Part shown: positions 7,701 to 63,031 of the stretch, one piece after another | Layout: every line of letters starts with the position of its first letter | How positions within the stretch are numbered: the stretch's first letter is position 1 | Assembly: GCA_950295325.1 (NCBI GenBank) | Contig: OX485809.1 | Location: 36,027,081-36,091,080, forward strand | DNA length: 64,000 bases | Direction of reading: 5' to 3' | DNA from: Polytrichum commune | Taxonomy: Eukaryota; Streptophyta; Polytrichopsida; Polytrichales; Polytrichaceae | Notes under the pieces: model-generated | The model's input: only the letters and a program-made list of their open reading frames with translations | The model's database searches: none | What the model was told of the DNA's origin: nothing | Translations under genes and position numbers: made by a program

Positions 7701-7847
7701 GGAAACACTACACTACTTTTGCACTTGTTGCACACCAACCTTACTTGTGGACTTATAGGCCGCCCACACATATTGGTGGTGGGTAGCAGTGAACGGGCGA
7801 ACTCCGTTCACTGCCGCCAGTAAGTGTGGGTAAGAACTAGGGAGAAC

Positions 7848-8282: not shown

Positions 8283-8289
8283 CGATTAG

Positions 8290-15700: not shown

Positions 15701-15985
15701 AACTCCAACACACATTGAACTAATGAACTTTTGATAGAAAGTTCTCCCATAAAAGGATCAAACCCACAATTTTGTCCCTCTGTAAGAGACTTTACACATA
15801 ACTCTAATAAATCAAAATTTGTGAGAATTTGGAGTGACATGGGTCTCCCAAGTTAGTTTGGGCTTACAAACAAAATCGGATTGACCATGCAACAACTTCC
15901 ATTGCCTACCATGTGAGAGTCCATGTAGGTTTCTCATCCTTTAAAACTTCCTTAATCCCTGAAGCCCTGAAGTTCTAGTTTTGTA
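12736..15985. other. Intergenic DNA without a supported gene
   Basis: Holds a poly-T tract near 13467-13489, a poly-C tract near 14492, and short frames (12821-13096, 15026-15307 and others) with no recognisable family. No RNA gene seen. Confidence 0.45.
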
Positions 15986-15989
15986 AAGT

Positions 15990-16203
15990 GAAGGGTGCAA
16001 TGTCAAGGTAGATTTTTGGGCATAATTAGTTGAGATCCTAGTGCTTCCAAGACCAACCAATTACATGTTCGCATCTTTTGGTTTTTTTTCTTTATTAAAA
16101 TTGAGGAATATTATGTAAATTCTTCTAAATGGAACAATCATTTTCATGAGGTTTTCAATTTGCACCAGTTATTTCTCAAACTCAACCAGTTCATCTATAA
16201 CTA
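15990..16203 (-). repeat. Truncated copy of the 7848-type dispersed repeat
   Basis: From TTTTTGGGCATAATTAGTTGAGATCC to CAACCAGTTCATCTATAACTA (quoted in parts; positions about 16012-16203) it is the reverse complement of the 7848-8282 family. It is cut off at its distal end, where the TA-flanked element at 16204 was inserted. Confidence 0.6.
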
Positions 16204-26399: not shown

Positions 26400-26750
26400 A
26401 AGAAATCCTCACATGGAAAATGTACGGTATCACAACACATGATCCATGTTCACATGTCAACCTACCACTTGGCCTTCCCAGGTCATGTGGCAAATCCATT
26501 CACCAACTATTCAACAAGTGGCATAAGAAGAGGAACAAGAACAAGACACTCCACATATTTACATGTGACGCAATGCGAGGGTGTGGGTTGACTTCTTTGA
26601 TGGTTTGCATTATTGGCAAAAACTTGTGATATAAGAGAGAGAAATGTGACAATAAGGGGGTGAGATTTAAATTAAGAACATCCGTTCTCTAGGGTTTTGG
26701 GATATTAAAAAGTGAATGACATTATGGATGTTAATATTACATAGTTCAGA
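26400..26750. repeat. Right half of the 17804-type MITE
   Basis: ACGCAATGCGAGGGTGTGGG, TTGACTTCTTTGATGG and CATCCGTTCTCTAGGG match the right half of 17804-18296. Confidence 0.6.
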
Positions 26751-42810: not shown

Positions 42811-43389
42811 GTAGGCAACACCTTAGCAAGTGCAAGTGTACCATTCCACTACTTGCGGATGTACCATGGTGACATGGTTAGGATTCATCCAAGGCCGGCC
42901 AAATATATGAATACAAAGGCCATACATTCCTTAAGAGATAGTTACCAATTATTTATTAGTATCCACATCTTTAATGACCATTTAAGGCTTTTTTCCTTTA
43001 ACACAAAAAGGACACGTAGGCCCAAAGTACAACAACTAATCCTTCTTTATAGGGGGTGGGGGGCTACAAAGGCATTTACAGAATCAGGTCAGTGGTATTT
43101 TGAAAATTCTTAAAAATTTCAAAAAAAAATCCAACCAACTCGTTTTTCAATCTTGTGGTGCCGTTATGGATTTACTAATGTGGTGTGAATTTCCTTTCAG
43201 GAAACCAGCTAGGACAATAGCAATCAGCAACTACACTAAATAGGAACACTATATTCGTTAAATTGAGACTTTTTGGGCATTTTGAGACATTCACATAAAT
43301 AAGAACAAGGATAAATGGAACACATATTGGAGAAAGTTGTAAGATGCGAACACTTTGAAGCAGGTGTTTAGACCAAGAACCCCATAAAT
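42811..43389. other. Intergenic DNA without a supported gene
   Basis: Contains a GGGGGTGGGGGGC patch (about 43051). The open frame 42715-43113 is largely antisense to the LINE remnant. Nothing else recognised. Confidence 0.45.
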
Positions 43390-43680
43390 AACTCATATTT
43401 GTGATGGTTTAGGGTGGGCAATCCAAATCTTAGACCACATTTAAGGGGAAACCTTAAAACATTCATATTATTGCACACAAAATATTAGAGCTTGTATGAA
43501 TATGGTTTAGGTAGGGCAATCCAAACCATAGATCTTATTGAAGGGTTAATATGTTAACCAATATAATATTGCATACAAAATATTCCAAACTCATATTTGT
43601 GATGGTTTAGGTAGGGCAATCCAAACCTTAGACCATATGGAAGGGGAAATCATGTCTAACTTGTATTATTGCAAAAAAAA
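43390..43680. repeat. About 95-bp tandem repeat, three copies
   Basis: Three units contain CATATTTGTGATGGTTTAGG, TAGGGCAATCCAAACC and TTAGACCATA-AAGGGGAAA. It lies just left of the gene-rich block and may mark its edge. Confidence 0.7.
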
Positions 43681-43792
43681 ACATACAAAGTGTGGCATGT
43701 AAAATGCATATCATGCTAACACCACACATGCATTGGATAGTGCGACCCAAAATGTTCTTGCCTATGGCCCAAAACCCTACGCCTACTATGGC

Positions 43793-44635
43793 CTATCTAG
43801 CCTCGGATACTACCTCTTTTTCTTTTGCTTCATTTTCTTTTGCTTTTTTTTCTTTTGCCTCTTTTTCTTTTGCTGCAGCTTCTTTTGCTCGCATTGCTTC
43901 AACATTCCTGAAAATCTCCGCCCCGCGACTATAGCCATTCTTGGGGTGAACACCATCAATAACACATTTTGTATTCCGTCGGCCGCCCGAATTATACGAC
44001 GAAGAATTCGAATACGATGAAGTGGACTGTCTTGCATTTCTGGTCATGGAGTAGAAACGCTCCAACTCGATGGACGCACTAGACCGCATAGGTTTACGGG
44101 TGGGAGCAACCTGCAACGCATCAACGCAAGAACACATGTGTTAGTTTAGGGAGGAAGACCCAAACGTGTCACACGTTCATTTTTTAAGTGCAAAATGATT
44201 GTAATGCGCGGATAACCATGTTTTTTGGGGGGGTTGGGGGGGGTTCACCTTGTCACCGGGGGCGTTCCCGTCGGAGTTGGCGAGGAGGGGCAAGGCATCC
44301 CGCAAAGGAATAGGAAGGGTTCCACTCTTCGTAGGCCGAGCGTCCATCCATAGCCGCCGTTGAGGTGTACTACTGCCGCCGGGCCGAGAGGGGGATGTCC
44401 GGACGCATTTGCGATTTATGCCTTTGAGCGGTGACGGGGACGCAGATCGCCGGAAGATTTGCTTGGGTGGGGGGCTATCGACGACGCCGGCGTCAAGAGG
44501 CTCCTTGGAGTAGTCGATGGTTGACGCGGCGTCGTAAACGGTCTCGTAGAAGAAGCTCCCCAAGTCTGACTCGCTGACGACGTCAATCGAGGGCTCCAAA
44601 CGCTGGAGCCAAAATTGGAACAAAACAAAACCCAA
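43793..44635 (-). CDS. Two-exon gene of unknown function
   Basis: Exon 1 ends at about 44249 with GACAAG/GTGAAC and exon 2 starts at about 44111 after GTTGCAG/GTTGCTCC. Joining the two keeps one frame: NSDGNAPGDK then VAPTRKPMRSSASIELERFY. A CTCCAG acceptor (44606-44611) just upstream of LEPSIDVVSESDLG suggests the listed first codon at 44635 may lie in an intron and the true start in an exon further upstream. The protein is rich in S, P and R in the middle. The C terminus has an 18-bp DNA repeat giving AKEKEAKEKKAKENEAKEKE, a basic/acidic coiled-coil-like tail. No enzyme domain is recognised. It follows the phosphatase-like gene on the same strand after about 110 bp. Confidence 0.5.
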
Positions 44636-44745
44636 GGAAAAGGGGGGAGATAGAGCGCGTGAAAATCAAGATACATATGAAGCGTAAATTACACAAAATG
44701 GGCAGGCGCATATACACACACACACATACAAACACACGTACTGTC

Positions 44746-45558
44746 TCAAATGAGCTTGTTAAATTTCGCGTGAGATAACAACTCTCTGTACAAATGGTCT
44801 CGTGGATCCAAGTATCTCTCGCCTATGGGATTATTCCTAACAAAATTGTTTACGGGAAGTCCGCTTCCCCAGAGCGCCTGGAGGTATTTACTAAGGTCTA
44901 ACAAAAATCGGTCCCGGACCTTCTCGACCGTCCACGTAGGGCACACTATGAAGTTGGCTGTCGGGTTCAACATGTTCTTTGCGGCGCTGTCGTCCACCAT
45001 GAGCGTGTTCTCGCGGGTGGGGCGGACGTCGTAGGGGACGCCTATCAAGGACGGTCGCTGGTCCCAAAAAATGGGCTTCAAGACCTTGAGGTATTGGGGG
45101 GAAGCGGGGTTGTTTGGTTTTTTGACGACTTTGCCGTCCTGTGTGTACAATATTCTACAGGCTTCCTGTGCTAGGACCATGCAAGGGGGCTCGATGCCCT
45201 TGAAGATGAACTCCACGACCGCATTGGTGTTCTCGGCCGTCATGGAGCTCCACACGACCACCCACCATCGTTGTTGGGCGATCTGGAGGAAGGTCCGAAG
45301 CCACGGGCGGAGGTGAACTAGCTTGCTCTTTATGAACGTGGGCGGCCCGTCGTAATTAGCGTCCTCGGGCTTGCAAAAGGGCACTGTGGGGGCCCTAGGG
45401 CAATGAACGCACTGCACGAGGACACCGTTCAGGTCTAACACCAGGAATCGTTTCTTCGGCAGCGGGGGCGGGGCGGGTAAAACCGGGGGGGCCGCCGTGC
45501 TGCCCTCTGCGCTCCTTGGAGAAGAGCGTCGGGGAGCCGCTACGCTATGCTCCGAGCC
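44746..45558 (-). CDS. FCP1/HAD-like phosphatase domain, terminal exon
   Basis: The exon begins after an ATCCGCAG acceptor at 45558 and runs 270 codons to TGA. A proline-rich lead (APPVLPAPPPLPKKR) precedes FLVLDLNGVLVQC, the HAD motif I of the FCP1/NIF family at about residue 42. WWVVVWSSMTAENTNAVVEF is the motif II-like segment and TLMVDDSAAKNM the motif III-like D-D pair. FCP1-type enzymes remove phosphate from proteins such as the RNA polymerase II tail using DxDx(T/V). Here the second D is N (DLN), a variant I associate with plant FCP1-like proteins, so activity is uncertain. The start lies in an upstream exon that I could not fix (a GC-rich candidate leader lies at 45830-46020). It may be a captured or a resident host gene. 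Confidence 0.72.
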   Translation of the reverse strand, partial: GSEHSVAAPRRSSPRSAEGSTAAPPVLPAPPPLPKKRFLVLDLNGVLVQCVHCPRAPTVPFCKPEDANYDGPPTFIKSKLVHLRPWLRTFLQIAQQRWWVVVWSSMTAENTNAVVEFIFKGIEPPCMVLAQEACRILYTQDGKVVKKPNNPASPQYLKVLKPIFWDQRPSLIGVPYDVRPTRENTLMVDDSAAKNMLNPTANFIVCPTWTVEKVRDRFLLDLSKYLQALWGSGLPVNNFVRNNPIGERYLDPRDHLYRELLSHAKFNKLI

Positions 45559-46026
45559 CTGCGGATACGATCGAGAGAAAACGGTGGGCGACTTATGTCA
45601 TGCTATGTCCAAACGAAGCATTAAGGAAACGAGTGTTCTTGGTGCAAACACAAAACCAATTGATTCATTTTGGAGGGGGTGCAACAAGGGATACAAGAGA
45701 GACAAGAGCATACAAAATACATTCAAACACAATATACAAGTATATAGGAGTCAAAAATGGTGATTGTATTGTATACAATGCTCTATGTACATTTTGATTG
45801 GGGGAAGCCGCGTTGAACGATGCGTTCAAACTAGCCTACTTCTAAATCTAAGAAAATTTGAAGAGACGGGCCGCCGTGATGAAGACTTCGTCGCAAGCCG
45901 GGGTAGGTGGACGAACGAATGGTCGGGGGGATGTGGCGAAGGGCGCGAGTGCCGGGGGGGCGACGTGTGTGTGAGTTTAGGGTAGCTAGGGGACACGACC
46001 AAGGCAAGAAGACAAAGACCCATGGA

Positions 46027-46048
46027 GTTTGGGTCGACCGACCCAAAC
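46027..46048. repeat. Palindrome just downstream of the ParB-methyltransferase-like stop codon
   Basis: Arms GTTTGGGTCG and CGACCCAAAC around AC. It lies 10 bp past the stop codon, at the presumed upstream border of the phosphatase-like gene, and is the leftmost copy seen. Confidence 0.9.
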
Positions 46049-46057
46049 TGAGTGGGG

Positions 46058-47542
46058 TCAGTGCATTATCTCGCCTTGGTCGTGCCTTGACGACGTTGAT
46101 GCCGGCATCGCCTGCGCTGCCCCACCTCTGTCACCGCCGCCTCCGACGACGACGTCAGCCGCAACCTGCTCCTGCAAAGGCTGACTGTCAGGCCTTTGTC
46201 CCAACCCAACCTCCGCATGCGCATCATGCATTGGTTCATCGACTGGGTTAGGAGTAGAGGTATCACCAGGCCCTTGCGGGCCTTCAACGTCTAACATGCC
46301 CTCGTCCACCGGGGTCTGGTCGGGGACGGGGTTTGGGTCGGCTGACCCAAACCCTGCTGCTTGGCGAGCGTCGCTCTGGGACGCTGCAACGTGGGCACTG
46401 TTTGGGTCGGACGACCCAAACATGTGGGGGTCGTCCCGCTGGTGTTGTGGGGGTGAGAGGATGGGAGGCCGGAGCGGCGGGGGCGCCAACGAGCTGGACG
46501 CTCCGGCGACGCGCCAAAGGTTGGGGTCGTCCACCTGCTGGACGGGCGCGTAAGGGCGGGCGTGCGGCTGCAGCAACTGCGTGAAGCTGAAGGAATGCTG
46601 CAGCGTGGGCCGCGGGGCGATATCCTGTGGCGGGAAGCCTGCGGGCAAGTGCGGGAATGAACTCGGGGGAGCCATCACCAATCCCTGCGCCAGCATGCCC
46701 TGGATCACTTGCGTGATGAGCTCCGCTTGGGACGGAGTTTGGGCCATCGCCCTTTGCCGCTCCTGCTCCAACAGGAGAGCCCTCAACTCCGCGACTTCGT
46801 TGCGGACCGAGGGTTCCTCGGCGGCAACCCTCTGCAGTCGCACACGCTGCTCCTCGTCTCGGAGCATTTTTGCGTTCGCCTCCTCCACGGTGAGGACCTC
46901 CGGTTTCACCCTCACATTCCCGGCGAACGCTCTGGGGGAGGCAGGATCCGACCTCAGCCTCTTGGCGAGTTCCATGTCGTCCTCGTCCTCTGAGCTTATT
47001 GCGATTGTCTCCTCCACCGCATAGTCCCCGTACAGCTTCTTCCCCTTCATCCTTCTCCGCTCCCTGAAGGTGGCCGTCGCGTCCCTCGAGTACATGTCCT
47101 TCGCGTCGTCCACCGTCAACGCGGGCACCAGCCTGCTTTGCGGCGTGGCAGCCCGCATGGCCTTCTTCCGCTGAGGGGCCTCGGATTCTTGAGTGAATCC
47201 TGTTGCCCCTTCCTCCACCTCCCCCTCCACTTTCTCTGCTTCCTCCTCCTCCTCCTCCTCCCCCCCCTCCTCCCCAACCTCGCCACCTCCTCCCATCGAC
47301 GGATTGCCCGGATGCAACCCGATGAGCGGCTCTGGCAATTGAACGGGGGCACGCATGGCGAATTCACCTGGGTTGATTCGCCTCGCCATATCCAAAGGAT
47401 TCTCGCCCCCCTCGACTATCTCTTCAACGTAGGATCCGGGTATCCAGTCAAGGATGTCCATTTTCTTGGCCAGTGCCTTCTGGGTCCTGTAAAATTGAAC
47501 ATCGGCATCCTCCACATAGGAGTAGATGTTCAACCCAGACAT
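46058..47542 (-). CDS. Exon 3 of the ParB-methyltransferase-like gene: acidic, coiled and proline-rich tail
   Basis: 495 codons including TGA, uninterrupted, starting MSGLNIYSYVEDADVQFYRT, which completes the methyltransferase-like fold. Next come an acidic run (EEGGEEEEEEEAEKVEGEVE), a basic patch (RERRRMKGKKLYGDY), a coiled-coil-like stretch (EANAKMLRDEEQRVRLQRVA, ELRALLLEQERQRA) and a P/S/G-rich tail ending RHDQGEIMH. Two genomic palindromes (46331-46352 and 46400-46421) are translated here as FGSADPN and FGSSDPN. Like the other exons it is clearly GC-rich against the flanking DNA. The plus-strand frames 46581-47024, 47138-47563 and others are antisense shadows. Confidence 0.62.
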   Translation of the reverse strand: MSGLNIYSYVEDADVQFYRTQKALAKKMDILDWIPGSYVEEIVEGGENPLDMARRINPGEFAMRAPVQLPEPLIGLHPGNPSMGGGGEVGEEGGEEEEEEEAEKVEGEVEEGATGFTQESEAPQRKKAMRAATPQSRLVPALTVDDAKDMYSRDATATFRERRRMKGKKLYGDYAVEETIAISSEDEDDMELAKRLRSDPASPRAFAGNVRVKPEVLTVEEANAKMLRDEEQRVRLQRVAAEEPSVRNEVAELRALLLEQERQRAMAQTPSQAELITQVIQGMLAQGLVMAPPSSFPHLPAGFPPQDIAPRPTLQHSFSFTQLLQPHARPYAPVQQVDDPNLWRVAGASSSLAPPPLRPPILSPPQHQRDDPHMFGSSDPNSAHVAASQSDARQAAGFGSADPNPVPDQTPVDEGMLDVEGPQGPGDTSTPNPVDEPMHDAHAEVGLGQRPDSQPLQEQVAADVVVGGGGDRGGAAQAMPASTSSRHDQGEIMH

Positions 47543-47752
47543 CTGCACAATCCAAATCAATAGTATTAGTATAAACTAATGAAGAGTAAGGAAAAATGAC
47601 ATCCAAAATAAAATAAGAATAGTTAGTTTGGGTCGAGCGACCCAAACTAGGGCATGCACAGTTTGGGTCGCTCGACCCAAACTATGGGCATACCCAGTTT
47701 GGGTCGCTCGACCCAAACCGTCCGTATAGGGCTTTCAGGGTTCTTTGCTTAC
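47543..47752 (-). repeat. Intron 2 of the ParB-methyltransferase-like gene with three palindromes
   Basis: Palindromes at 47626-47647, 47661-47682 and 47697-47718 (centres AG, CT, CT) are spaced 35-36 bp apart within a 210-bp intron whose donor is GTAAGC and acceptor TTGTGCAG. The spacers share GGCATGC or GGGCATACCCA. Confidence 0.85.
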
Positions 47753-49084
47753 CATTGCTGCAAAAATCGGTTTGGATCCCCCGAAAACGTTGAAGATGCA
47801 GTCCCCTCTCTTGGTGAGGGTCCTCATCATCCACAGGTAGAACTCCATGCGCAGCTCATCTGCGGGGTAGTTGGCGTACTTCGCCTCGTCATACAAGCTC
47901 CTGCTGGTACCCAAGCCTTCTTGGACTTGGAAGAGCTTTTCCATCCTGGCTATAGGATGGTTGGGCACCTTAAGTAGATCAGCTTTGTACACGAAGTACA
48001 AGCACAACACGTTGACGATCTTCGTCTTCTTGTCTTTCAACGTGCTGTACGCCCCCTCCGCCGGTGCAGCAACGTAGTGAGATTTCGAGACGGCATACTC
48101 CGGCTGCAATTTGCGCACGATCTCGTAAACATGCTCTGCCCTCCTATCCTCGACAATCTAGAGCCAGACGTCGACCTCCCTGAATTTGGGGCTGGCGTAG
48201 TCCACGAACTTCGACAAGAAAGCATCGTAAAAAGGGGTGCTCATAGTCCCCTCGAATGAGGCTCCAGGGATATTCCTGAAGTCTATCATTCCGAAGGGGA
48301 AGCGGTCCCCGGCTTTAGTCCTGATCGCCTTCCTGGACTCAGAGCCCGGCCAACCTTGGATCCTGAGAGGCTCGACGGTGACCATGTTGAATTGCGCATC
48401 GCCTTCGAAACTGACGATCTTCTTCTCCTTTATGAAGTTGGAGAAGGCCCGCGCTGAGTGTTCGGGAAGCACCCGGTTCCTCCCCCCCTTCACGAGCTTG
48501 GATCTGAGGAAGTCGTCTCCCGCCTCCCTCATGAGTGCCGCCATGGATGCACTGGTGAACTTATATTCGGCTTTGAAGGCCCTCCAGTGCGCCTCGTCGA
48601 CCTCTCCGTCCACGATGAGCTTCTTCTCGGGCACCAGCTTGTGCAGCTCTTGGACGATGGTCGTCTTCTTCTTCCTGTTCTCCGTCCATTCCTTCATGGT
48701 GTAGCATGAAGGGACGAAGATCTTGGGTTTGGTGAAGACGATCTTGGGGTGGACCCAGCATCTCTTCGCCGTCGTCTCCACGTGTAGGATGTGGGACGCC
48801 GCTTTTCCCATCTCTGTCTCGGAAAGACCTTGAAGCGCTCTGAAGAACTCCCTCACCAGAGGCTTCATTTGCTTGAAGCGCGTAGTCTGGTTGAAGAGCA
48901 TGCCGGTGTCGGGGTCCATAAGGTCCCCCGTCTCGTGTTTTTAAAAAACACTCCTCCATTTTTCCCACACGGAGTCGGACGCGGTGATCAAATATATTTC
49001 TCCTCGCAACTCGTTATATTTTTTTTGCTTGTGGCTAGCATTGTCTATCGAGGAGAATTTATTGATCATCTGATATTTGAAGTC
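47753..49084 (-). pseudogene. Exon 2 of the ParB-methyltransferase-like gene
   Basis: 444 codons from DFKYQMINKFSSIDNASHKQ to GGSKPIFAAM. TAA at 48941-48943 (after WEKWRSVF) and TAG at 48158-48160 (between REVDVWL and IVEDRRAEHVYEIV) are the only breaks. The open pieces 48158-48919 and 47735-48118 are parts of this one exon in the same frame. The exon holds a helical central region (MKEWTENRKKKTTIVQELHK) and the methyltransferase-like fold with the glycine motif near its end. Antisense frames 48237-48704 and 48791-49096 are shadows. Confidence 0.62.
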
Positions 49085-49290
49085 CTGCACACGTAGCCAA
49101 CAATTCATGTTAGACAACATCTCATGGAATAACAAATGTAACATTAGTTTGGGTCGATCGACCCAAACTATAAACCTGGTAAAGACAACAAAGCCATGCA
49201 AGAGTTTGGGTTGACTGACCCAAACTATGAATTTGTTGAAGACACTAAAACAATGAAAGAGTTTGGGTCGGTCGACCCAAACATACTCAC
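49085..49290 (-). repeat. Intron 1 of the ParB-methyltransferase-like gene with three palindromes
   Basis: Palindromes at 49147-49168, 49204-49225 and 49261-49282, exactly 57 bp apart; the middle one has one arm base changed (GTTTGGGTTG). Intron length is 206 bp, donor GTGAGT, acceptor GTGTGCAG. Confidence 0.85.
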
Positions 49291-50616
49291 CTCCCATTTG
49301 GGGTTCTTATCTTTAGCATTCTCCCTTTCCCTGAGAGGCCTGCCATAAAACTCCCACACCTCCCTCGAGGCCATGATGTTTTTGATCCACGATGCCTGAT
49401 AGGCCCTCTTTTTGTTCCCCATGTTGAAGAACCTGGAGATGTCGCTGAGGACCGTCTCGTTGTCCGACCAAACCACCAAAGCCTTCCAAACTTTTAGTTT
49501 CTCCTTCTGGTTGTTCGGGTCGTTTCACTCGGTCATCAACTGGATTTTTTTTTATGCCTCCACACTGTGCTGCCCGTCAATCAACCAGAAGTCTCCTTTG
49601 GAGATTGTCGGCCACATATCAGGCGTCGGCATTCTCTTCAACCCTTGTGGCATGACAACAATCGTCTGCCTGTCGTCCTTGAACTGCCCGCCCAAGATTT
49701 GAGCGACCATCCAGTCGACGTAGGCGTCTTCCTTGGCTCGGACACATTTCTCGGGTGGCGCAAGGTGGCACTGCGCAATGTTGACCTCGAACTTGAAGTC
49801 CCTGCCCATGAAGAAGCAGTGCAGGCATTTTGTTTCGAAGTTGGTGTTTATTTTTTGTATTTCGCCTGCATCCACCTCCTGGCCAGGCTTCGGCATCCGG
49901 AGCTCCGGGGAAACAGGCTCGTCAGTCATCACCGATGACTCTCTTCCCCTTTTGGAAGGGGTCGTTTGACGGCTTGTTGATGGCGTTGGCGTCTCGCTAT
50001 CAGCCGGCGTTGTTGTAGTACTTGTCCGTCTCGACTCCACAGGGACCGCCCGCGGTTTCCTCACAGTTTGTGGTCTTGAGGACCCTGCGCCTTCTTCCGT
50101 CGTTGCCTTCCGCCTCACAGGTTGTTGTGTTTTGGGTTTGCTTTGCAGCGCCTTGTTTAGAACCGTGATGGCCTGTTTTAACTTCGTGAACCTGCTCGCA
50201 ACCTTCATGTTGGTTACACTGCCATCTATGAATATGGCCTCCGGTTGTATGGTTTCAGGGTCGACGCAGGTCTCCTTGGCGTACAGGGGGTCGAAGGGCT
50301 CGGAGAACTGGTGCATGAACATGTGGACGTTCTGCACGGCGGAGTTCTCCAGTATGACGTCTACATAGTCCCCGAGAGACTGGACAGACGCAACCTCCCA
50401 TCCCGTCAGCGTTGCCCAGGTGTGCTGCTCGTGGGTCCCCACCTTCACCACGAATAGCAGCTTGAACATGGATGCCTTCACCACCTGAACGGACCATGCC
50501 AGAACGACGCCATCTTTTGGGACGTAAGAATCGTCCTGTGGAGTTTCATACTCCTGCCAAAGGTGGTCTGGCGCGAGCATGAACCACCTTTCACCTGGTC
50601 TCTTTTTAGGGGCCAT
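49291..50616 (-). pseudogene. Exon 1 of the ParB-methyltransferase-like gene
   Basis: The start codon (cat at 50614-50616) follows GGTTGCAG directly, so a leader intron ends exactly at the ATG and the protein begins MAPKKRPGERWF. Residues 1-180 form an unrecognised domain (LTGWEVASVQSLGDYVDVIL). Residues 185-265 are a low-complexity S/T/P/R linker with a basic run (TPSKRGRESS) that could act as a nuclear signal. The ParB-like domain follows. Two stops, TAA 49552-49554 and TGA 49525-49527, interrupt it just after the DGQH motif. Beyond them the same frame continues as NDPNNQKEKLKVWKALVVWS and REVWEFYGRPLRE to the donor. The frame open only downstream (49225-49479) is this same exon after the stops. 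Confidence 0.6.
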
Positions 50617-51824
50617 CTGCAACCCAAGAAATCGAAACTGTGAGTTTCGGTCGATCGACCCAAAGTATTGCAATGTGCATTTAACATTTGGAGGATTGAC
50701 TCAAACATTACTTAATTTTCAAAGTCGTTTTAAAAGATCTTTTAGATTTTAAATTGTGGTTTAGGTGGTCACCCTGCAATGTTTGAGTCGAGCGACCCAA
50801 ACATGATGAGGCTGCAAATTTAGGTAGTTTAACCCATTCATTTCAGAGTGCAATGTTTGGGTCGAACGACCCAAACATTTACTTAATTTTCAAAGTTCTT
50901 TTATATTTTACAATGTGTTTTAGTTCTTCTCCGTGTAATGTTTGGGTCGACCGACCGAAACATGTTAGGCTGTAAATTTAGGTAGCTCAACCCAATCATT
51001 TCAGACTGCATTGTTTGGATCGCACGACCCAAATATTTACTTAATTTTGAATGTTCTTTTATATTTTACAATGTGGTTTGTTCTTCTCCCTGTAATGTTT
51101 GGGTCGAGCGACCCAAACATGATGAGGCTGCAAATTTAGGAAGCTCAACCCATTCATTTCAGACTGCAATGTTTGGGTCGAACGACCCAAACATTTACTT
51201 CATTTTCAAAGTTCTTTTATATTTTACTATGTGGTTTGTTCTTCTCCCTGTAATGTTTGGGTCGAGCGACCCAAACATGATGAGGCTGCAAATTTAGGTA
51301 GCTCAACCCATTCATTTCAGACTGCAATGTTTGGGTCGAACGACCCAAACATTTACTTCATTTTCAAAGTTCTTTTATATTTTACAATGTGGTTTGTTCT
51401 TCTCCCTGTAATGTTTGGGTCGAGCGACCCAAACATGATGAGGCTGCAAATTTAGGAAGCTCAACCCATTCATTTCAGACTGCAATGTTTGGGTCGAACG
51501 ACCCAAACATTTACTTAATTTTCAAAGTTCTTTTATATTTTACAATGTGGTTTAGTTCTTCTCCCTGTAATGTTTGGGTCGAGCGACCCAAACATAATGA
51601 GGCTCCAATGTTTGGGTCGCTCGACCCAAACATTTAGTTCATTTTAGGCTGCAATTCAAATATTTATTATATTTTAATATGAGTTTGGGTCGTCTCCCCA
51701 AACTACTGTGTTTCCAGATGCATGTTTAATGCTTGGGCAACATATACAATGCTTATGCATTGTATATGTAACAAGAACCTAAAGGGAATGATGCAAATTG
51801 TGTGCACTGATACAAATTGCTTAC
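50617..51824 (-). repeat. Leader intron with a 158-bp dimeric palindrome array
   Basis: The intron runs from donor AAG/GTAAGC (51824) to acceptor TTGCAG (50617), 1208 bp, directly before the ATG. Palindromes start at 50644, 50781, 50855, 50940, 51013, 51097, 51171, 51255, 51329, 51413, 51487, 51572 and 51610. From 50781 to 51572 the spacing alternates 73-74 and 84-85 bp, so the unit is a 158-bp dimer, and the centres mostly alternate AG and AA. Spacers share TGATGAGGCTGCAAATTTAGG and TCAACCCATTCATTTCAGACTGCAATG (read in parts). A last degenerate palindrome is near 51682. Repeated 74-82 codon open frames here are artefacts of the array. Confidence 0.85.
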
Positions 51825-52455
51825 CTTGTCTTTCAAACTCTTGAAAGTTGCTCTCACAATCTGCTTCTTACAACCAGACTCAGAAACTCTGTTGTGGCAC
51901 TAAAGAACAACTCTCACAAAGACCTCAGAAACACAATGAATCTCTCAAGCACCCTAAAACTTTCTCACAAACCCCCTGATTCTTGCAAACTCAGGCCTAA
52001 TTTGAAAGACCTCTACCTTTCTATCACACTCGACCGTGCTCACTTCTACTCAACCTAAAATCACTCCATGCATGAAATTTACAAAACAAGTAAGGAGTTC
52101 AACACAATAAACCGCTCCGAACTCACTCAAAGCTAACACTCTGGACCAAGAAGAGAGAATAACAAGAGGAAGACAATAACAAGAGGAATAGAATGAGAGA
52201 AGAGGAGGAGAAGCATCAGAGAGGAGGACAGGAATGAAGGAGAAAGAAGAATGAAAGGAAGCGGCGCGACCAAGACAAAAGCAAAAGGTGCGAAAGGAAG
52301 CGTTTGGCGCGGCGCTATGGAAAGCGGCGGCAGCGTTTCCAAGAGCGGCGCTTGGCGTGGAGGAAGAGAGGAAGAAAAAGAGAGAAAGAAAAAAGAGGAG
52401 GGGAGAGAAGGAGAGAGCGGAAGGGGTCACCCTAAACCCTCGAATCCGGGCCATT
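51825..52455 (-). other. Probable 5-prime leader exon of the ParB-methyltransferase-like gene
   Basis: Read on the minus strand it is rich in CT (CTCTCTCCTTCTCTCCCCTC at about 52395-52415), like many plant leaders, and ends at the GTAAGC donor at 51824. A 134-codon minus-strand frame (52050-52454) consists mainly of S, F and L from the CT-rich sequence and is unlikely to be a real protein. The exact transcription start is not determined. Confidence 0.45.
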
Positions 52456-52486
52456 AGATTGCGCCGGGCCCATCAACGGCTCAGAA

Positions 52487-52567
52487 GCCTCGCGGGCCAA
52501 CACCCTGCCAGGTGTCGACACCTCCTTGGTTAAGGTGGTTGCCCGCGAGGCTTGTGGTGTTGACACC
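52487..52567. promoter_or_regulatory. Palindrome cluster in the divergent promoter region
   Basis: GGTGTCGACACC (52511-52522) and GGTGTTGACACC (52556-52567) are 12-bp palindromes. Interleaved with them, GCCTCGCGGGC (52487-52497) and GCCCGCGAGGC (52541-52551) are exact inverted copies. The cluster lies just upstream of the presumed leader of the minus-strand gene, within a GC-rich island (52440-52680), and could bind a dimeric regulator. The function is inferred from position and symmetry only. Confidence 0.45.
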
Positions 52568-53202
52568 TGCCACCCTGGGCAAATTGCCTTCCTGGTTGTC
52601 CTTGCCCCTAGGTGCGGGACATAGGAGGGCCGGCGCCTCTCTTGGCCGCCCGGCCCCGGCCTTCTAACCCGCTATTCATTAGCGGCAATTCAATACCACT
52701 CAAAAACCTACGTGGACTAAGGTATTCCACAAAATTAACACCATCGCCAACTCATATTTTAATGGTGTTCAATTGAATGATCACCCGTTGGAATTGATAA
52801 CATCGTAGAATGTAGCCATTATCGTTTTGGTGTATGAATAATGTAATTTATGGAATCATATGAGAGTGTTACAAAGTCTAAGAGGAGTAAGTCATAATTA
52901 TATTGCAATCCACAAAGGCAATTACACGGTGCAATAATATAAATATGGTAACCATTCACATGGTTAACAGTTTAGGATTATGTATTGTAATTTATATGAT
53001 GGTTGTTGGTAGAGGACAATGCTCTAGTCTATAATGGATACCCTAACAAGTAGCATTAGAGTGAACATTAATATATGTACTTAGAAGTTCACATTTGAAG
53101 TACATGGGAGAAACAAATGATTACAAATGTATCTACTGCAACCCCATGGAGTTCACATATCATATGAAGTCATTTAAACATTCAATTTGATGTTTGATGA
53201 TG

Positions 53203-53230
53203 CCTAAACCCTAAACCCTAAACCCTAAAC
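53203..53230. repeat. Interstitial telomeric repeat (CCCTAAA)n
   Basis: Almost exactly four CCTAAAC units in a row, the plant-type TTTAGGG repeat on the opposite strand. The flanks are unique AT-rich DNA. Confidence 0.9.
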
Positions 53231-54067
53231 AACACAAACCATAAATGGATGGCACATAGGTCAAATGACATGGGCCTTGGTGCTTGTAGTTTCCAATACA
53301 AATGTATAATGTCATCACAACATCCTAATTCACAAACGTGAAAGATGGATGTGTGGTTTTTCACGAATGAACGCACTAAAGGAAATAAATGATATTGTGC
53401 TCACAAGTAGGTGATACAATATTAACCTATAACCTTGTCACCTGGTAAGAAGAGCATAAGAACTAGATTATAATAGATAGGATGTTGTTCATGTTAACAT
53501 GTTATTTGGAATAGTGAAATATTATATATTAATTTAAGGTAGATTTCATGTTGTGAATGATATGAGGACATACCTTTTGAACTTTGCATGTTTTGCTCAC
53601 ACACATTGCTAGAGTTCAAGGGACTTCACGATAGGTTCAAACATCATTGAAACATTGAATGTGCCAAATGTCATTTGTGGTTTATGGTTCCATTAATGAC
53701 TTCCACATAGGTACTAGGTTATTGTCACACTTGGAGCCTTGAGGATGAAGCAATATTGGGTGCACACATTACAACACAACAGATGTTCTTTTAACTAGCG
53801 GAAATTGAAAGTTGGCCAAATTATTCAAGTTTGTCATGGCATTAATTATTTGTTTTCAAAATATAAGTCCTCATGTGAGAGTGTAAGTAATTGCATTAAC
53901 TATTATATTTAGTGACTTTTAGTGACTTTTAGTATATGAAGTTTTGTAATACATGCACATCTTTTGTCAATATATTGTTTGAAATATACCATAATGTTTG
54001 ACTACAAGTAGAGTAAAACCCCTTAATAGATATAATCTTACATATTGTCACAGGGTTATTGGTATTC

Positions 54068-54415
54068 AGTGTATGCGTTCATATGTAGTGTATCAAAATC
54101 TTTATATCCTTTTTAGTTATATGATAGTTAGTGTTTGATACACTTAAAACGAACGCATACACTTCCTATTACTAACCCTATGAGAGTAAGTAACATTAAA
54201 TGTAAACTCAAACACTAAATATCCACTGTGGTGATATATGGAAGTTACATATAGGAATTTAGTATTAGTAAGGATGTGAGAAAAAAATACAACAATGATA
54301 AAAGGAGAAAGGAGATGGCAATAGGGAAGGTGGTGGTGTATTCATGTATAAAACTAATTATGAAAGAGTTGAAGAATAGTGTTGACCAAGTTAGGGTGGT
54401 AACAACTTTAAATAA
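54068..54415. repeat. Repeat copy 1 left of the palindrome array (partner at 59865-60190)
   Basis: GTTAGTGTTTGATACACTT, GAACGCATACAC and TAAATGTAAACTCAAACACT through ATGATAAAAGGAGAA recur at 59865-60190 in the same orientation. The block starts with a hairpin (GTGTATGCGTTC at 54069, GAACGCATACAC at 54150). The two copies flank the array and the DUF7869-type gene. Confidence 0.7.
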
Positions 54416-54586
54416 TATATGTTGAATTATTCATTTGATGGTTGGGGCAACGAAGAGCCAAGCTAAATATACATTGTCTATTATTGACAAGAAGCGGGAA
54501 ATTGAGTCAGAAGGTTTGAATTAACGTCCAAAGGAGACCAGGCGGGAAAGGCATCCAAAGAGGATGCCCAAAGCGGAGGCAGGTAG

Positions 54587-54593
54587 TATAAAG
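54587..54593 (+). promoter_or_regulatory. Candidate TATA box of the DUF7869-type gene
   Basis: TATAAAG lies in a GC-richer context (GGAGGCAGGTAG upstream, AGCCCAACC downstream), about 25-35 bp before a likely start and a leader that would run toward the palindrome array. Confidence 0.45.
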
Positions 54594-54807
54594 AGCCCAA
54601 CCCCCCCAAATGCTGGTTCTTTCTTTCATGTCCCAATCCTGAGATTGCTGCAAGCTCTCTAAGTTGGAGCTGTAATACACGGTTTGTGTACGTTTCCATT
54701 CATGAGCAGCTAATTACAACAAATATCTACGAGTTCAGTTGTTCCAAATAGGTTATATATAGATTAATAGAGAATCACCCGAATAAATAGGCGGATTTTG
54801 CGGAATT

Positions 54808-56079
54808 GTTTGGGTCGGTCGACCCAAACCCAGCCTTACAGTGTGGGTGCTCTCTGTTGTGAGCCTGAACCCATCCTGCCTCAAGGTTTGGGTCGATCGA
54901 CCCAAACCCAGCCCTACAGTGTGTGTGCTCACTGATGTGAGCCTGAACCCATCCTGCCTCAAGGTTTGGGTCGATCGACCCAAACCCAGCCCTACAGTGT
55001 GTGTGCTCACTGATGTGAGCCTGAACCCATCCTGCCTCAAGGTTTGGGTCGATCGACCCAAACCCAGCCCTACAGTGTGGGTGCTCACTGTTGTGAGCCT
55101 GAACCCATCCTGCCTCAAGGTTTGGGTCGATCGACCCAAACCCAGCCCTACAGTGTGGGTGCTCACTGTTGTGAGCCTGAACCCATCCTGCCAAAAGGTT
55201 TGGGTCGGTCGACCCAAACCCAGCCCTACAGTGTGTGTGCTCACTGTTGTGAGCCTGAACCCATCCTGCCAAAAGGTTTGGGTCGGTCGACCCAAACCCA
55301 GCCCTACAGTGTGGGTGCTCACTGTTGTGAGCCTGAACCCATCCTGCCAAAAGGTTTGGGTCGGTCGACCCAAACCCAGCCCTACAGTGTGGGTGCTCAC
55401 TGTTGTGAGCCTGAACCCATCCTGCCAAAAGGTTTGGGTCGGTCGACCCAAACCCAGCCCTACAGTGTGGGTGCTCACTGTTGTGAGCCTGAACCCATCC
55501 TGCCAAAAGGTTTGGGTCGGTCGACCCAAACCCAGCCCTACAGTGTGGGTGCTCACTGTTGTGAGCCTGAACCCATCCTGCCAAAAGGTTTGGGTTGGTC
55601 GACCCAAACCCAACCCTACAGTGTGGGTGCTCACTGTTGTGAGCCTGAACCCATCCTGCCAAAAGGTTTGGGTCGGTCGACCCAAACCCAGCCCCAAAGT
55701 GTGGATGCTGTGTGTAGTGAGCCTGAACTCATCCTGCCTCGAGGTTTGGGTCGCTCGACCCAAACCCAGCCCTCTAAGTGTGGGTGTTGTCTTTAGTGAG
55801 CCTGAACCCATCCTGCCAGAAGGTTTGGGTCGATCGACCCAAACCCAGCCCCCTAAGTATGGGTGCTCATTATCGTGACCTTAAACCCATCCTGCCAAAA
55901 GGTTTGGGTCGCTCGACCCAAACCCAGCCCCCTAAGTATGGGTGCTCCTTGTCGTGACCTTAAAGTCATCCTCCCAAAAGGTTTGGGTCGCTCGACCCAA
56001 ACCCAGCGCCTAAGTGTGGGTGCTCTCTGTATTGAGCCTGAAACCTCCTCCCAAAAGGTTTGGGTCGCTCGACCCAAAC
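54808..56079. repeat. 78-bp tandem array of 17 palindromes in the leader region of the DUF7869-type gene
   Basis: Palindromes with arms GTTTGGGTCG and CGACCCAAAC start at 54808, 54886, 54964, 55042, 55120, 55198, 55276, 55354, 55432, 55510, 55588, 55666, 55744, 55823, 55902, 55981 and 56058. The step is exactly 78 bp for the first 13 copies, then 77-79. Centres are GT, AT or CT, and arm bases are almost invariant. Spacers read CCAGCCCTACAGTGTG, GTGCTCACTGTTGTGAGCC and TGAACCCATCCTGCC, and the right-hand copies are more diverged. Because 78 is a multiple of three, long repetitive open frames appear on both strands (up to 352 codons). They are not genes. Confidence 0.92.
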
Positions 56080-56292
56080 CCAGCCTCTAAGTGTGGATGG
56101 GATCTGGATGACAGTGTGGCCACTGGCCATCCAAAACCTTTACGAACCCAATGGCATATTAGTCATATGAACTTGTATGAGCACTGAGTATTTGCAATTT
56201 TGTTTATATATGATGGTTTTTGTGGTCTTCGATTTGAACCTACAATTTTTGTGATTTTTTGACAATGTTCAATGTTCATGTGTGTAGGCAGA

Positions 56293-59200
56293 ATGGATGG
56301 GTTTAGTGAAATTGGGGATTGGTCATCTGATGACATGGCCACTTGGCCATCTGCATCTGATGATGACTTAGACATTGTCGGGGAGGCTACTATGGCTGAC
56401 AGTGCGGATGAAGATCATTTGGATTTACCTTCGTCTTCCGTACTGCAGTGTCCCATTGTTGAATGTACGGGACTTTCAAGGGCTTCGTGGGTGAATTTGG
56501 AGGTGATACTTCTTAACGATAGTGGAGTTGTTGTGGCGGAGGGGATTTGCCGTAACACCCATCCGCAAGATTGCATTGATGAAAACCCGCTTGGCACCGA
56601 GGACGTTGGGGTTGTCATATTGGAGTCGGTCGTTCATTCCGAGGTGGATCCCACTCATAGGTTCTCCCTCCGCAGGTGGCCGTTGAGGAATGTCACAATT
56701 GATGGAGTTAGCTTGCGTGAACATGAGCAACGACACATGCAAATCGAAAAGGAGGTGCAAGCAAACATGCGGCCGCGCAAGGGTCAAAGAAAATACGATA
56801 CATTGGCACGTCCTGCTCCGTCTGCAACTGATTGTAAACGTCAAAGGTTGCTCGGGGAGGAGTCCATTAGAGAAGTTGCCACAAAGGATTGTTGTGTGCA
56901 TCGTTGTTGCCAATTGTTTCCAAGGGATAAATTGAAGGCCATCCGCGAAGAAATGTGGCTTGGAGATTTCCGTCTAAGATCCACAAGAAAACTTGATGTC
57001 CATAGGGCGATACATGTGAATGGGATGGGTCGCAAGGTCATCACCATTGAAAGCATGGACGTGTGTTGTAAGGCATGGTACACCATTCACGGTGTGTCGA
57101 AAGCGGACTTTTATCGACAAGCTGCTTATGCCAAGGAAGGCCGCCGGTCCCGTCACCATGGTAATGTGGGTTTAAAGAAGCCTAGGGAAGCAACAAGGCA
57201 AGCAACGGCCACTCTAGCAACCATCATTGTCCCCCTTGCCGATGCAATGCCGCACAAAACACGCACGCTCACAACCGGTGAAAAGGTTGTGGAGAAAGTT
57301 CTTCCCACAGGCACAAAATGGAAAGACATATTGTTGGACGTGAATGCAGTTGGCGAGAAGATTGGGTTGGAGCCAATTTCATTGTCAAAATTGAGTGCAA
57401 TTAAGAAACAAAACTTTAGCGAATACATTACAAAAAGACGAGGGGACAAATTTGCCAGGTGCTCTAATTGCGAGAAGTTGAAGCGCCTCCGGGATGCACA
57501 CACGATGGGTACCGAGTCATATGCAGCGCATCAATTGAACTATTTCAAGCACGTAAACATGCAAGAGGCACACCATAATGATTATTACACAAATAGAGCT
57601 TTGTCCATCTCCAGGCCCTTGGAGGTTCTTACGGTCATCCATGACAAAATGGACCATGCCAAAACAGCCTCTTCATGTTTTGCAAATCGAATCAAGGCCA
57701 CGGATGGGTTTTTTAAGTTGTCTGTATCGGTTACAGGTGAACTTCGAAACAATGTCATGACATATCTTAAATGTTGTGGTTTTTTATTCCGTGATGTACT
57801 TGAGAACATGGATTCACTCAAAATGGTTTAATTATATCTAATCACGTTGGGTTGGCATTGCAGGAATGATTGCACATGAACACGGTGATGTCAAGTTTGC
57901 TCATTATGTTCTTGATTTGTATCCAGCGGATTCAAACCACACAATAGGGTCATTTGCAAGGCTTTTACGTGATTTAGAGAAACCGCCAGCCTATTCTTCA
58001 GGATTGTTATTTGAAAACACGGGTTCAACACCTCTATATGAAGCGTTGTTGGATGGAAAAGATGTATGCTTTCATTCGTTGCCAGAGCCACCCAGTGATC
58101 CCGTGATTGCCAAAAAGTTGCCTCCCACTTTGCGTGTCCAATTGGACAATTGTGCCAAGGACAATAAAAGTAGATATGTTTTTGCATATTGGTCGTTGTT
58201 GGTTGCGAAAGGCATTTTCAAGGAGGTTTTTGTGTCCTTCCTATTGGTAGGCCACACGCACGATGATATTGATGCATCTTTTGGGCGGTGGAGCATGAAG
58301 TTGCGGGAGGAGGATTTCCCTACAATCCCGTTATTGATGAAGTTGTACATGGATTTGGATAACGTTCCGGTCATCCCCCATATGATTGAGGAGGTGCCAG
58401 ACTTCAAGGCATTTATAGAACCTTATATTCGAAGTGGAGCTCACCGATTGATCGGGCATACGAAGGCACAACAATTCCGCTTCTATATGCGTGACGATGG
58501 TGTCCCGGCCATGCAATACAAGTTGTTGTGCACGACACAAGACTGGAGCCCGCCGGAGGGTCTTCTTGTGTGGCGCGTGGATGCGGATGGAAAGACCATG
58601 TTACCGGATGGGGAACCTAGGCCTTGCAAGCCAATAGCCATGAAGAATTTGGAGGATATTTTGAAAGGTATATCAGGCTTCATACAATATTGGGAGAGTT
58701 TGAAAATAGCGGATGTTGGCGGATCATGTTGGCATCATTATGGGAGTTGGATACATTATTGGACACGTGTTCGTGCCGCCTTGGCAGACCTCCACCAAGA
58801 TAGCCCTCATACTTTGAGGCATGGATTTTGGCCACAAACACGAGTCGATGTACAAGCTTCGGAGCCTAGTCTTTTGGGAAATGGAGAGGTTCGAGAGGAG
58901 TTTGATGTGGACGACCATTACGTGGGGCCGGCTAGTAGTCGTCCCCCACCATCTTTCCGCATTGCAGTGGATTGTCATGAAGGTTATATGCTCATTTTAC
59001 GTCCTGGAGACGAGACATATGCAAAGCCAGTGTGGGTGGCAAGAACTTTGTCCAAACCCAATTTTGTAACTTCCAGCCCTCATTTTCGACAGATACAAGT
59101 GGAGTACTATCGACCGACAGCAAGGAATGAAGATGTGATTCGGCATTATACAGGCTGGGATACAAACCCTAACTTTCGGTGGAAGGTGGATTCTGAGCAC

Positions 59201-59350
59201 GGTCCATCTTGGGTAGATACAGATTCCATATTCATAGCATGGAAACCACGGAAAAACCATAGTGGATTAGTGTCCATCCCTCAAAAGTACATAACTTTTG
59301 CAAAAGACAACCTTGCTCGGATTGCACAAGAAGCAACCCACGTTGAATGA
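56293..59350 (+). CDS. DUF7869-type transposase-like protein, two exons, apparently intact
   Basis: Exon 1 56293-57736 and exon 2 57864-59350 join at ACAG/GTGAAC and TTGCAG/GAATG (phase 1), giving 976 codons. The junction reads SVSVTG then MIAHEHGDVKFAHY, and the frame beyond the donor has no such continuity. An acceptor-like GTGTGTAG at 56288 precedes the chosen ATG; an earlier in-frame ATG (56272) lies before it. Features: acidic N terminus, C/H-rich CVHRCCQLF (about 199-207), ARCSNCEKL (about 388), then the DUF7869 core with VQLDNCAKDNKSRYVFAYW (D576) and LLVGHTHDDIDASFGRWSM (GHTHDDID at 611-618). These D and H/D residues suggest an RNase H-like, DDE-type nuclease, typical of transposable elements in plants, fungi and animals. 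It diverges from the ParB-methyltransferase-like gene. No stops or frameshifts, so it may still be functional. Confidence 0.78.
57737..57863 (+). other. Intron of the DUF7869-type gene
   Basis: 127 bp from GTGAAC to TTGCAG. Reading on from exon 1 without splicing gives a TAA at 57829-57831, so the unspliced frame ends there. Splicing restores the family's continuous VTG-MIAHEHGD sequence. Confidence 0.75.
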
Positions 59351-59864
59351 GAAGTTGGTAGGATTGTGTTAGCATGATTATAGTTTAATACGTAATTATA
59401 GCAATATAAATTACACATATGTGTGCTCTTCAAAATTGGGGCAGAGTTTGGGTAGAACTTACGAATACTATATTGTTTGGAGTTGGATGAATATCCATTT
59501 ACTATATTTCAAAAAAAAATGAAGTTCATCTTATTATTATGTTTGGGACTATATTGTCGAATGAAGAAATATGCATTTATTACATGCACTTTGTATGTTG
59601 CAATGTCTATATTCTATTGTGCATGCTAATAATAGAAATCAGTTTATATGTTTTTTGGGTGAAACTTGTTTGGAGTGCTCTACCCAATGTGTTTTTGTTG
59701 ATGAAGTTGGTGTCGAGTGCTCTACCATATGTGCTTATGTCCGCACATCATAGATTTGGGATATTAGAACATATAATATAATTGAGATTGTTGACAATAT
59801 AGTTTCGGGCCTCTTCAAGTTCTTTGATCCATATATTAATTTGAGACTAGAGAAAGTCTCAATT
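59351..59864. other. 3-prime flank of the DUF7869-type gene
   Basis: AT-rich, no gene. GTGCTCTACCMWATGTG occurs twice about 50 bp apart (about 59675 and 59717). No palindrome of the 46-56 kb type is present here. No clear polyadenylation signal could be fixed. Confidence 0.45.
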
Positions 59865-60190
59865 TAACGAATATAGTGTTTAGGGTGTTTAGTGTTTGAT
59901 GCACTAAATATGAACGCATACACAAAATATCAATCACCTTTGAAAGTAAGTAACAATAAATGTAAACTCAAACACTATATATCAACTATGAAATATGTGG
60001 AAGTTACATGTTTGAATTTAGTGTCAATAAAGACATGAAAAAAAATTTAGCAATGATAAAAGGAGAATTTCAACATATCTTCTAGCAAATCTTCTAACAC
60101 TAAGTATCAAAGAATCAGAAATTAGTGTTGAGCAATGTAGGGTGGTAACAACATTGAGTATGATCAAACACTAAATATCCTATTTAGTGT
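59865..60190. repeat. Repeat copy 2 right of the DUF7869-type gene
   Basis: Direct copy of 54068-54415 (GTGTTTAGTGTTTGATGCAC, GAACGCATACAC, TAAATGTAAACTCAAACACT, GCAATGATAAAAGGAGAA). It extends at the right to AAACACTAAATATCCTATTT and AGTGTAGTG, which mirrors its left end, so the unit is probably a MITE. Confidence 0.65.
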
Positions 60191-61284: not shown

Positions 61285-63031
61285 TGTGAGCCCAAAAGGG
61301 TGCCCACATTTAGTCTTAGACCCTTGAAACGTTAGTTGATGCACTTTGAAGTAGCATGTTACTTCACAAAAATATAAAAAGAGTGAAATGTTAGTCTTAG
61401 AAGTACCATGTTGTAAGAGGCTAGGATGTGAGTTGTTATTGTGTTTTTACCTTCGGAAGGATTTGAGTGAATGAGGATAGGTAAGGAGAACTTGGATTGA
61501 GTAGTTAGTGAGTAGGCTAGTACAAATGGATGGAGACAACCAAAGTGACTCAAGAGGCAAGTGCATTCGAATTGGGATGAATGGAGGATCACATGGAGCG
61601 CACAAGTGGACCACCTCATCATGGCCACTTAATGGGGAAGGCCCAAGGAAGAATGCAAGGTGGAGGATAAGCAAATTCTCAAAGCACCAATCAAATCACG
61701 AGTTAAGCATCGTGGTTTGAATTAAGTGGTGAGCGACGATTTGGGAAAGTAAGGGGAGAAAGTTATGGCGGCGGAAAGCGAAGGAGGCTAAGTTTGGGTT
61801 GAAGCATCCCAAGTTTGGTAAAGTGTGGTAGGTAGAAAGCCAAGGCTAGTTAAATGTTCGAATTAGGATCCTTGTTGATCATTTGAGGGAGGAAGGCTTA
61901 GAAGATAGGATTGGCGCCTACTAAGTAGGAGGAAATCTCAAGGGCTTATCGTGAGCCTTGAGGGTGCTCACCCCCTCAAGCTTACTATATAATCCCTCAT
62001 TCTTCCCTCACTCATCCTCTCTTTCCTTTGTGCTCCAAGGCACCCCACGAGTTATAAGTGTGGGTGTGGGAAGCCATATTGGAGCACATGTGTGTGCTTA
62101 GTTTTTAGTTTGAGAGCCAAGGCTTGTTAGCCTTGAAGAGGGCTTGACCTCTTGGTAGAATTAGTGTTGACGTGAAGGATTTTAAAGTTAATTCATGATT
62201 CCAATTTGTGGTACTTAAAGTTCATGTTTTGAATACACGTGGTTGCAAGTTCCATGTTTAAGAGTTGAGCACTTGATGTTGTGATGAGTGCAAAAATATA
62301 CTTGTGTGGATTAGTTAGTCTTAGTGAAGTTAGGAAATTCTCTCTCCCCCTCTCCTCTAGGATTTTAGGATTTTAGGATTAGAGAAGAATTGTGTGATTA
62401 GAAAGGGGTTGTTAGTAGAATTAGGGAAATTAGGTAGGAAGATTAGTTAAGGGCTTGAATAATTAGTGAGGTAGTTGGGGATTACAACTACAAAGTTGTG
62501 GGTTCATGAAGGAGCTGGGTTTGTTTAGTTAGAAAGTAAAGAGCTGGGTTTATGAAGGAGCTGGGTTTGTTTAGTTAGAAGCTAAGAAGCTGGGTTTATG
62601 AAGGAGCTGGGTTTATGAAGGAGCTAGGTTTATGTAATTAGAAAGTAAAGAGATGGGTTCATGAAGGAGCTTAGTAGATAGCCTACCTAATTAGCTCATA
62701 GACAAGTAGTTAGTTACATTATGCTAGTTAGTGTTATGTGTGGCTTTCACAAGTAAATGTATTTGAGATTGACTATAGAGAATAGTGTTTTTTTAACACT
62801 TGCATCCTCTCTTTAAAAATAAACCACGTGCACAACTTAATGGAGAATGTGGAGCACTCTCGCGATGGCAAGACAAAGGAAGCAAAGACCAAAGTTAAAT
62901 CCAAGACCACTTGAAGGGTGAACCTTGCACTATGGACTCATCCAAGTCCAAATCCAATACCGCGGAGGAATGTGAGCCCAAACCCACTACTCGGACTACG
63001 GACGCTTAAGGGTGGGGGGTTTGGCCTCACA
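61285..63031 (+). mobile_element. 5-prime LTR of an LTR retrotransposon
   Basis: Starts TGTGAGCCCAAAAGGGTGCC and ends TTTGGCCTCACA. It matches the two minus-orientation solo LTRs (2310-3854, 36739-37962) at both ends and at CTTAAGGGTGG, near 63004. The size is 1747 bp. CTATATAATCCC at 61985-61996 is the probable promoter TATA. 62500-62690 is a private minisatellite (GAGCTGGGTTTATGAAG units). The primer-binding site directly after it identifies it as the 5-prime LTR of an element that continues past the window. Confidence 0.85.

Follow-up and report, generated by a model that had tools for sequence, protein, structure and literature searches.

Why should a stretch of moss chromosome hold dozens of copies of one long palindrome, most of them in introns or gene leaders, and what might read them? 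The question arises in 64,000 bp of the Polytrichum commune genome (assembly GCA_950295325.1, contig OX485809.1, positions 36,027,081 to 36,091,080), the whole of which we call the window, where 39 copies of the palindrome GTTTGGGTCG-NN-CGACCCAAAC (at most 3 mismatches; 0.00 expected, 100 shuffles) lie between positions 46027 and 56079. Thirty-two of these match the 22-mer exactly. The block that contains them is the middle of a 16,636-bp DNA transposon (Table 1), and we propose, with a probability of about one half, that the palindromes are putative dyad sites for a trans-acting, probably element-encoded DNA-binding protein, arrayed in the non-coding parts of the transposon.

The palindrome block is part of a young transposon

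Elsewhere in the window (~54 kb) no palindrome is found at the same threshold. Confinement to 10 kb, as described in the sequence-only reading, thus holds for the window but not for the genome, whose 408 Mb carry 9,231 exact palindromes and not one copy of the reversed pattern used as a control.

Six copies of the element besides that in the window were compared; five of the six were read at both ends, and the seventh copy, whose left end was unread, was omitted from the comparison of flanks. Because the copies share the edges of the block, carry a 28-bp terminal inverted repeat (TIR; AACACTATATTCGTTAAATTGAGACTTT) at both ends in inverted orientation and are bounded by 4-bp target duplications, the block belongs to a single cut-and-paste DNA transposon. 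The 4-bp flanks, compared by eye, are identical in five of the six both-ended copies (TAGG in the window, CCTA, ATTG, AAAT and CATG) and match at three of four bases in the sixth (CTTA/CTTT). The flanks of five of these six copies, the window included, hold no site at up to 3 mismatches; those of the sixth hold four, which are part of a separate decayed array. This array, of seven palindrome-like sites (L019-L021 joined, 26687-26990, near C4:166 kb), lies ~4.6 kb outside the element and upstream of an unrelated 445-aa frame.

The element has two divergent genes. On the plus strand, the transposase gene contains a DUF7869 open frame (57842-59350). Of 1,862 candidate matches to this frame 85 were scored, which gives it a minimum of 85 copies with an identity of at least 96%; homologues of its protein from named organisms in the match list come from Ceratodon and Physcomitrium, and one homologue is predicted to have an integrase-like fold. 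We found no mention of DUF7869, alone or with a transposon, in the open-licence literature. The minus-strand gene encodes a predicted ParB/Srx-fold domain, and its first coding exon contains a stop at 49549-49551 in the window copy. Palindrome and both genes occur together in all eight elements read, namely the window copy, the six others of its kind (A) and one of a subfamily B, which is 77.5% identical to A across 7.5 kb of its left part; the ParB-like and DUF7869 genes are also paired genome-wide. A genome-wide satellite unconnected with these genes, which the sequence-only reading had set against its own proposal, is therefore found only in the first of its two aspects: the repeat is genome-wide, but it is not unassociated.

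Of the 39 palindromes, the transposase-gene leader holds 17 and the minus-gene leader intron another 13. Two inner introns have three apiece, an exon contains two in frame, and a single one is beyond the recognised exons; introns were placed from splice-site letters rather than RNA data. Subject to that, these locations agree with those first claimed (introns, leader introns, two coding spots and one further spot).

Arms are constrained while arrays turn over

The 78-bp array was compared across seven copies (90 units): mismatch to the consensus is 0.39% in the arms, 9.4% in the spacers and 29% in the centre, and the corresponding figures for the 64-bp array of subfamily B (12 units) are 1.25%, 22% and 29%. 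Constant arms around a variable centre are thus borne out and quantified. The spacing of the 78-bp arrays is unbroken, so decayed sites have not been silently lost from the count, and the array of subfamily B has one decayed unit, at its end. Between A and B, whose spacers can hardly be aligned, palindromes occupy matched positions in introns: in two introns the arms are identical at 57/60 and 39/40 positions, as compared with 76/127 and 48/105 of the other aligned intron columns, and one of the six A intron sites lacks a partner in B. The arms are under selection or constraint. The number of sites, by contrast with the arms, is labile, ranging among near-identical copies from 11 to 17 in the 78-bp array (seven copies) and from three to six in a 36-bp array (six copies).

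Selection on the arms and gene conversion had been offered as alternatives. The arm-spacer contrast and the conservation of arms between A and B support the former. Homogenisation affects the arms and spacers of a unit alike and therefore cannot explain the contrast, and conversion fails as the sole cause for the 78-bp and 64-bp arrays, with spacers ~20-fold more variable than arms; the 158-bp array of the minus-gene leader shows little contrast. A selfish or neutral palindromic repeat, spread by slippage and conversion and without function for the element, would account for the high turnover of the 78-bp array, for decayed arrays elsewhere and for the behaviour of the 158-bp array, but neither for the low variability of arms relative to spacers of the same units nor for the agreement in site position between A introns and B introns, and we consider it quite improbable. 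A pure satellite was rejected as a sufficient cause, given the arm-spacer contrast and the arm conservation between A and B.

The palindromes appear to be read as DNA

Arm changes were counted at 384 sites with up to 5 mismatches, taken from the window, the six A copies, B, loci L039 and L001, and C1:461-481k. Of these changes, 227 are one-sided and 3 compensatory. Compensatory changes being nearly absent, reading of the DNA sequence is favoured over a paired RNA stem. Hairpins formed by leader-intron RNA, regulating splicing or small-RNA production, would suit the position of the main arrays inside inferred introns, the one site beside a 5' splice site and the co-variation of the first flanking pair (discussed below); however, it is sequence and not pairing that has been kept in the arms. 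We have rejected a hairpin as the main function on this ratio, and the explanation as a whole is very improbable.

A second transposon family shares the site

The same palindrome occurs in a second dispersed family, S, in a 32-bp leader array and an intron-like stretch (loci L039 and L001). Matches in the genome number at least 132 for its minus-strand gene and at least 153 for its leader gene, some of the latter being pieces of one copy or distant relatives; the minus gene lies divergently within 20 kb in 46 of the first 64 leader-gene rows, and the opposite arrangement is seen in 2. Clusters were examined among the first 100 of the 9,231 exact sites, all within C1:0-2.16 Mb. These matches form nine clusters, all attributed to A/B elements or to family S: six belong to S, that at C1:1.18M is a sequenced B element, that at C1:616-626k was assigned without sequencing from A-like spacing and a ParB-like match, and that at C1:2.12M, likewise without sequencing, from its B-type spacing pattern alone. 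The clusters at C1:462.9-478.0k look like a single S leader array that nested insertions have split, followed directly by pieces of the leader gene. At one of these places (L005/L007, C1:475-478k) an insertion splits a single palindrome, and the five bases ACGAC can be seen by eye on both of its sides.

Searched against 9 kb of S, the window proteins gave no match at E<0.2 (best 0.22) apart from stretches of translated palindrome. This bears on the possibility that the palindromes are transposase binding sites, an enlarged set of subterminal-type sites serving transposition. Degenerate relatives with 4-6 of 20 arm positions altered do stand near the left end of the element (43407, 43505, 43605 and 44144), the last three having letter-identical counterparts in subfamily B; degenerate versions 160-380 bp from the end, two of three of them identical in B, are what such a role would lead one to expect. 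On the other hand, sites at up to 3 mismatches begin only 2.8 kb from one end and 3.8 kb from the other, and S shares the palindrome though the 9 kb of it that were searched yielded no A-type protein, which makes this role improbable.

Alternatively, a host transcription factor could bind the palindromes, each family having acquired this enhancer site in its leader introns on its own. Such a factor would explain why one motif is found in two families with unrelated proteins, and why the sites are near promoters. It would not explain why all 100 sites listed fall in clusters attributed to elements, two of the nine without sequencing, or why some homologues have changed motifs (see below); 20 fixed positions would also be long for a plant transcription factor. 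We hold a host factor to be distinctly unlikely.

Site and protein may change together

A leader gene ~40% identical to that of S was read at two places, and at neither does its leader array include a canonical site, even at up to 5 mismatches. These arrays hold 9 and 12 copies of the near-palindrome GG(T/G)TTCGG-GA-CC(G/A)AA(A/C)CC, mostly not fully symmetric there; the symmetric form with a free centre has 267 copies in the genome, against 1 for the reversed control. In the A family, 16 of 55 homologues of the ParB-like protein carry a translated palindrome (VWV.RPK, FGS.DPN or LGR.TQT), as do 0 of 205 reversed proteins, some of the 55 possibly being near relatives of the source genome in what is a small sample. 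The peptide lies toward the C-terminal end in 15 and is N-terminal in one, and 14 of the 15 have it visibly beyond the last conserved coding residues (alignment A1). Six further homologues have altered forms, three of them VSGDRPK. No such peptide occurs in 120 DUF7869 homologues or in 30 homologues of the S leader gene. This is the pattern that would be expected if protein and site co-evolve, albeit from a small sample. It cuts both ways, because A and S share the site though their candidate proteins have no detectable similarity.

The ParB-like protein as candidate binder

The binder is most likely encoded by the element itself, with the ParB/Srx-fold protein of the minus-strand gene as the leading, though putative, candidate. 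The resemblance to bacterial parS sites that was first noticed survives in part. The fold is predicted in the minus-strand gene, and here as in ParB-parS systems it accompanies a short palindromic site with GTTT...AAAC ends. Identity of the palindrome with parS is not supported, since its arms differ from the parS consensus, and the context, a eukaryotic transposon, differs too. The presumed CTP-binding site of the protein reads DGQHS, where ParB has GERR. No helix-turn-helix was recognised in the structural model P0124, in which residues 413-463 fall below a predicted local distance difference test (pLDDT) score of 50 and which does not extend to the later exons. PDB sequence searches, run with the S profile and both main profiles, returned no convincing match. 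A ParB-like motif seen by eye in the S leader gene (FFIWDGNHRFFAWK, WDGNHR; L039:6066-6827) found no support in a profile comparison with the A protein.

We found nothing in the open-licence literature joining a ParB-like protein, a transposable element and a moss. Two other ideas were dropped. A likeness to amino-methyltransferases, noted by eye for exons 47735-48940 and L039:8619-8999, was not supported by Pfam, PHROGs and NCBIfam scans or by PDB searches with two pieces. As to a prokaryotic or viral source, no exact palindrome occurs in IMG/VR or GTDB contigs, from which records of this genome or a very near one may have been excluded.

A possible role in keeping element promoters active

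Under our proposal, a homodimer would read two 10-11-bp half-sites over a free 2-bp centre. With arrays inside the leader introns of both divergent genes, many dimers would be loaded beside both promoters and could keep these expressed, either by autoregulation or by shielding them against silencing in the manner of VANC in VANDAL elements. The tandem arrays would grow and shrink while selection holds the arms.

Several observations weigh against this proposal. Apart from the ParB/Srx fold, no DNA-binding domain, whether helix-turn-helix or of another kind, was recognised. In the 158-bp array (25 units) arms differ from the consensus at 1.8% and spacers at 2.6%, the second palindrome of each compound unit being counted as spacer. 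The two bases that directly flank the 22-mer, one on either side, are complementary in 64 of 94 distinct contexts, where 33.7 were expected and none of 5,000 shuffles reached as many; A-T, G-C and T-A pairs are all represented. As the contexts share descent this co-variation is only suggestive, pointing to an 11-bp half-site or a structural component, and it is not predicted by a simple model of two half-sites. Finally, the candidate proteins of A and S show no significant profile similarity, 33 of 150 decoys scoring as high. The two families nevertheless share one site, whereas a relative only 40% identical already has a different palindrome. This speaks against the ParB-like protein as the binder, unless one family borrows the protein of the other, and a host factor or such exploitation must therefore be reckoned with.

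A bolder version of the proposal, which we think rather unlikely, is that two unrelated plant transposon families have a eukaryotic counterpart of parS. An element-encoded ParB-fold protein would load on the leader-intron arrays, spread and keep the promoters open; site and protein would change together, and one family may parasitise the protein of the other.

The closest known organisation is that of VANDAL21 and its protein VANC21 in Arabidopsis, with anti-silencing arrays of a 9-bp motif that is reported to be rare in other transposable elements (PMC5735166, PMC10398659). In those accounts, as here, a short motif concentrated in the element forms tandem arrays upstream of the genes that the element carries and in their introns, and these arrays turn over rapidly. 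The moss site differs in being a 22-bp near-perfect dyad common to two unrelated families, as against the 9 bp given there for VANC21, and the A element differs in its 28-bp TIRs, 4-bp target duplication and DUF7869 transposase. By analogy, the moss arrays are best read as organised like VANDAL/VANC anti-silencing arrays. A Pfam scan of six minus-strand open reading frames gave no convincing match except NIF in one; VANC was not compared directly.

CACTA/EnSpm elements have subterminal repeats bound by TNPA, ends that start with CACTA and a 3-bp target duplication. The letters CACTA are found inside the TIR of the A element, and both have repeated sites, which in CACTA/EnSpm are recognised by an element-encoded protein, TNPA. 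Unlike CACTA/EnSpm, the A element has ends reading AACACTA, a 4-bp duplication, a DUF7869 protein and exact arrays that are internal, in leader introns.

If our proposal is true, arrays of an element's own binding sites for escape from silencing arose outside VANDALs too, in a distant plant lineage and with a different protein fold, and one site came to be common to two transposon families. With its thousands of identical sites next to known genes, the genome would then offer a clean system for studying how copies of a transposon are marked by the transposon itself, and ParB-type loading in eukaryotic chromatin.

Other features of the element and the window

Table 1. Features of the transposon copy in the window (positions in the window)
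Feature	Position	Strand	Basis
Whole transposon copy, 16,636 bp, TAGG duplication	43245..59880		Edges shared with five both-ended copies, TIR, flanks
Left TIR	43245..43272	+	End comparison
Right TIR	59853..59880	-	End comparison
Subterminal tandem repeat, three degenerate palindromes (GTTTAGGTAGGGCAATCCAAAC type)	43407..43626	+	Two of three identical in subfamily B
FCP1/NIF-type phosphatase-like coding region	44746..45597	-	Pfam NIF, 56 bits
Palindrome beyond recognised exons, kept in subfamily B	46027..46048	+	Motif search, A/B comparison
Proline-rich open frame of minus gene; in-frame palindromes 46331-46352, 46400-46421	46058..47575	-	Open reading frame, motif search
Three palindromes, minus-gene intron	47626..47718	+	Motif search; splice sites inferred
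Three palindromes, minus-gene intron; last one 8 bases from inferred 5' splice site	49147..49282	+	Motif search, splice letters
First coding exon: N-terminal region (weakly PH-like), basic linker, predicted ParB/Srx-fold domain	49291..50616	-	Open reading frame, alignment, model
Minus-gene leader intron, 13 palindromes, 158-bp compound units	50617..51824	-	Motif search; splice sites inferred
17 palindromes, 78-bp tandem array, transposase-gene leader (inferred leader intron)	54808..56079	+	Motif search, splice letters
DUF7869 transposase gene, two or more exons	56293..59350	+	DUF7869 143 bits; predicted integrase-like fold of homologue; at least 85 copies

The phosphatase-like frame is possibly a captured host gene, and it is present in subfamily B too. 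Elsewhere in the window, 4045-6457 is a degenerate array of a different palindrome, GGTGAGGCA-NN-TGCCTCACC, with 24 sites at up to 3 mismatches, 3 of them exact, and a period of ~62 bp; the sequence around it (1-16000) gave no match to the A or S proteins. The stretch 61285-63031 belongs to a further repeat, which also occurs close to two other A copies and, as two direct copies, at C1:461-481k; it has the look of a long terminal repeat element.
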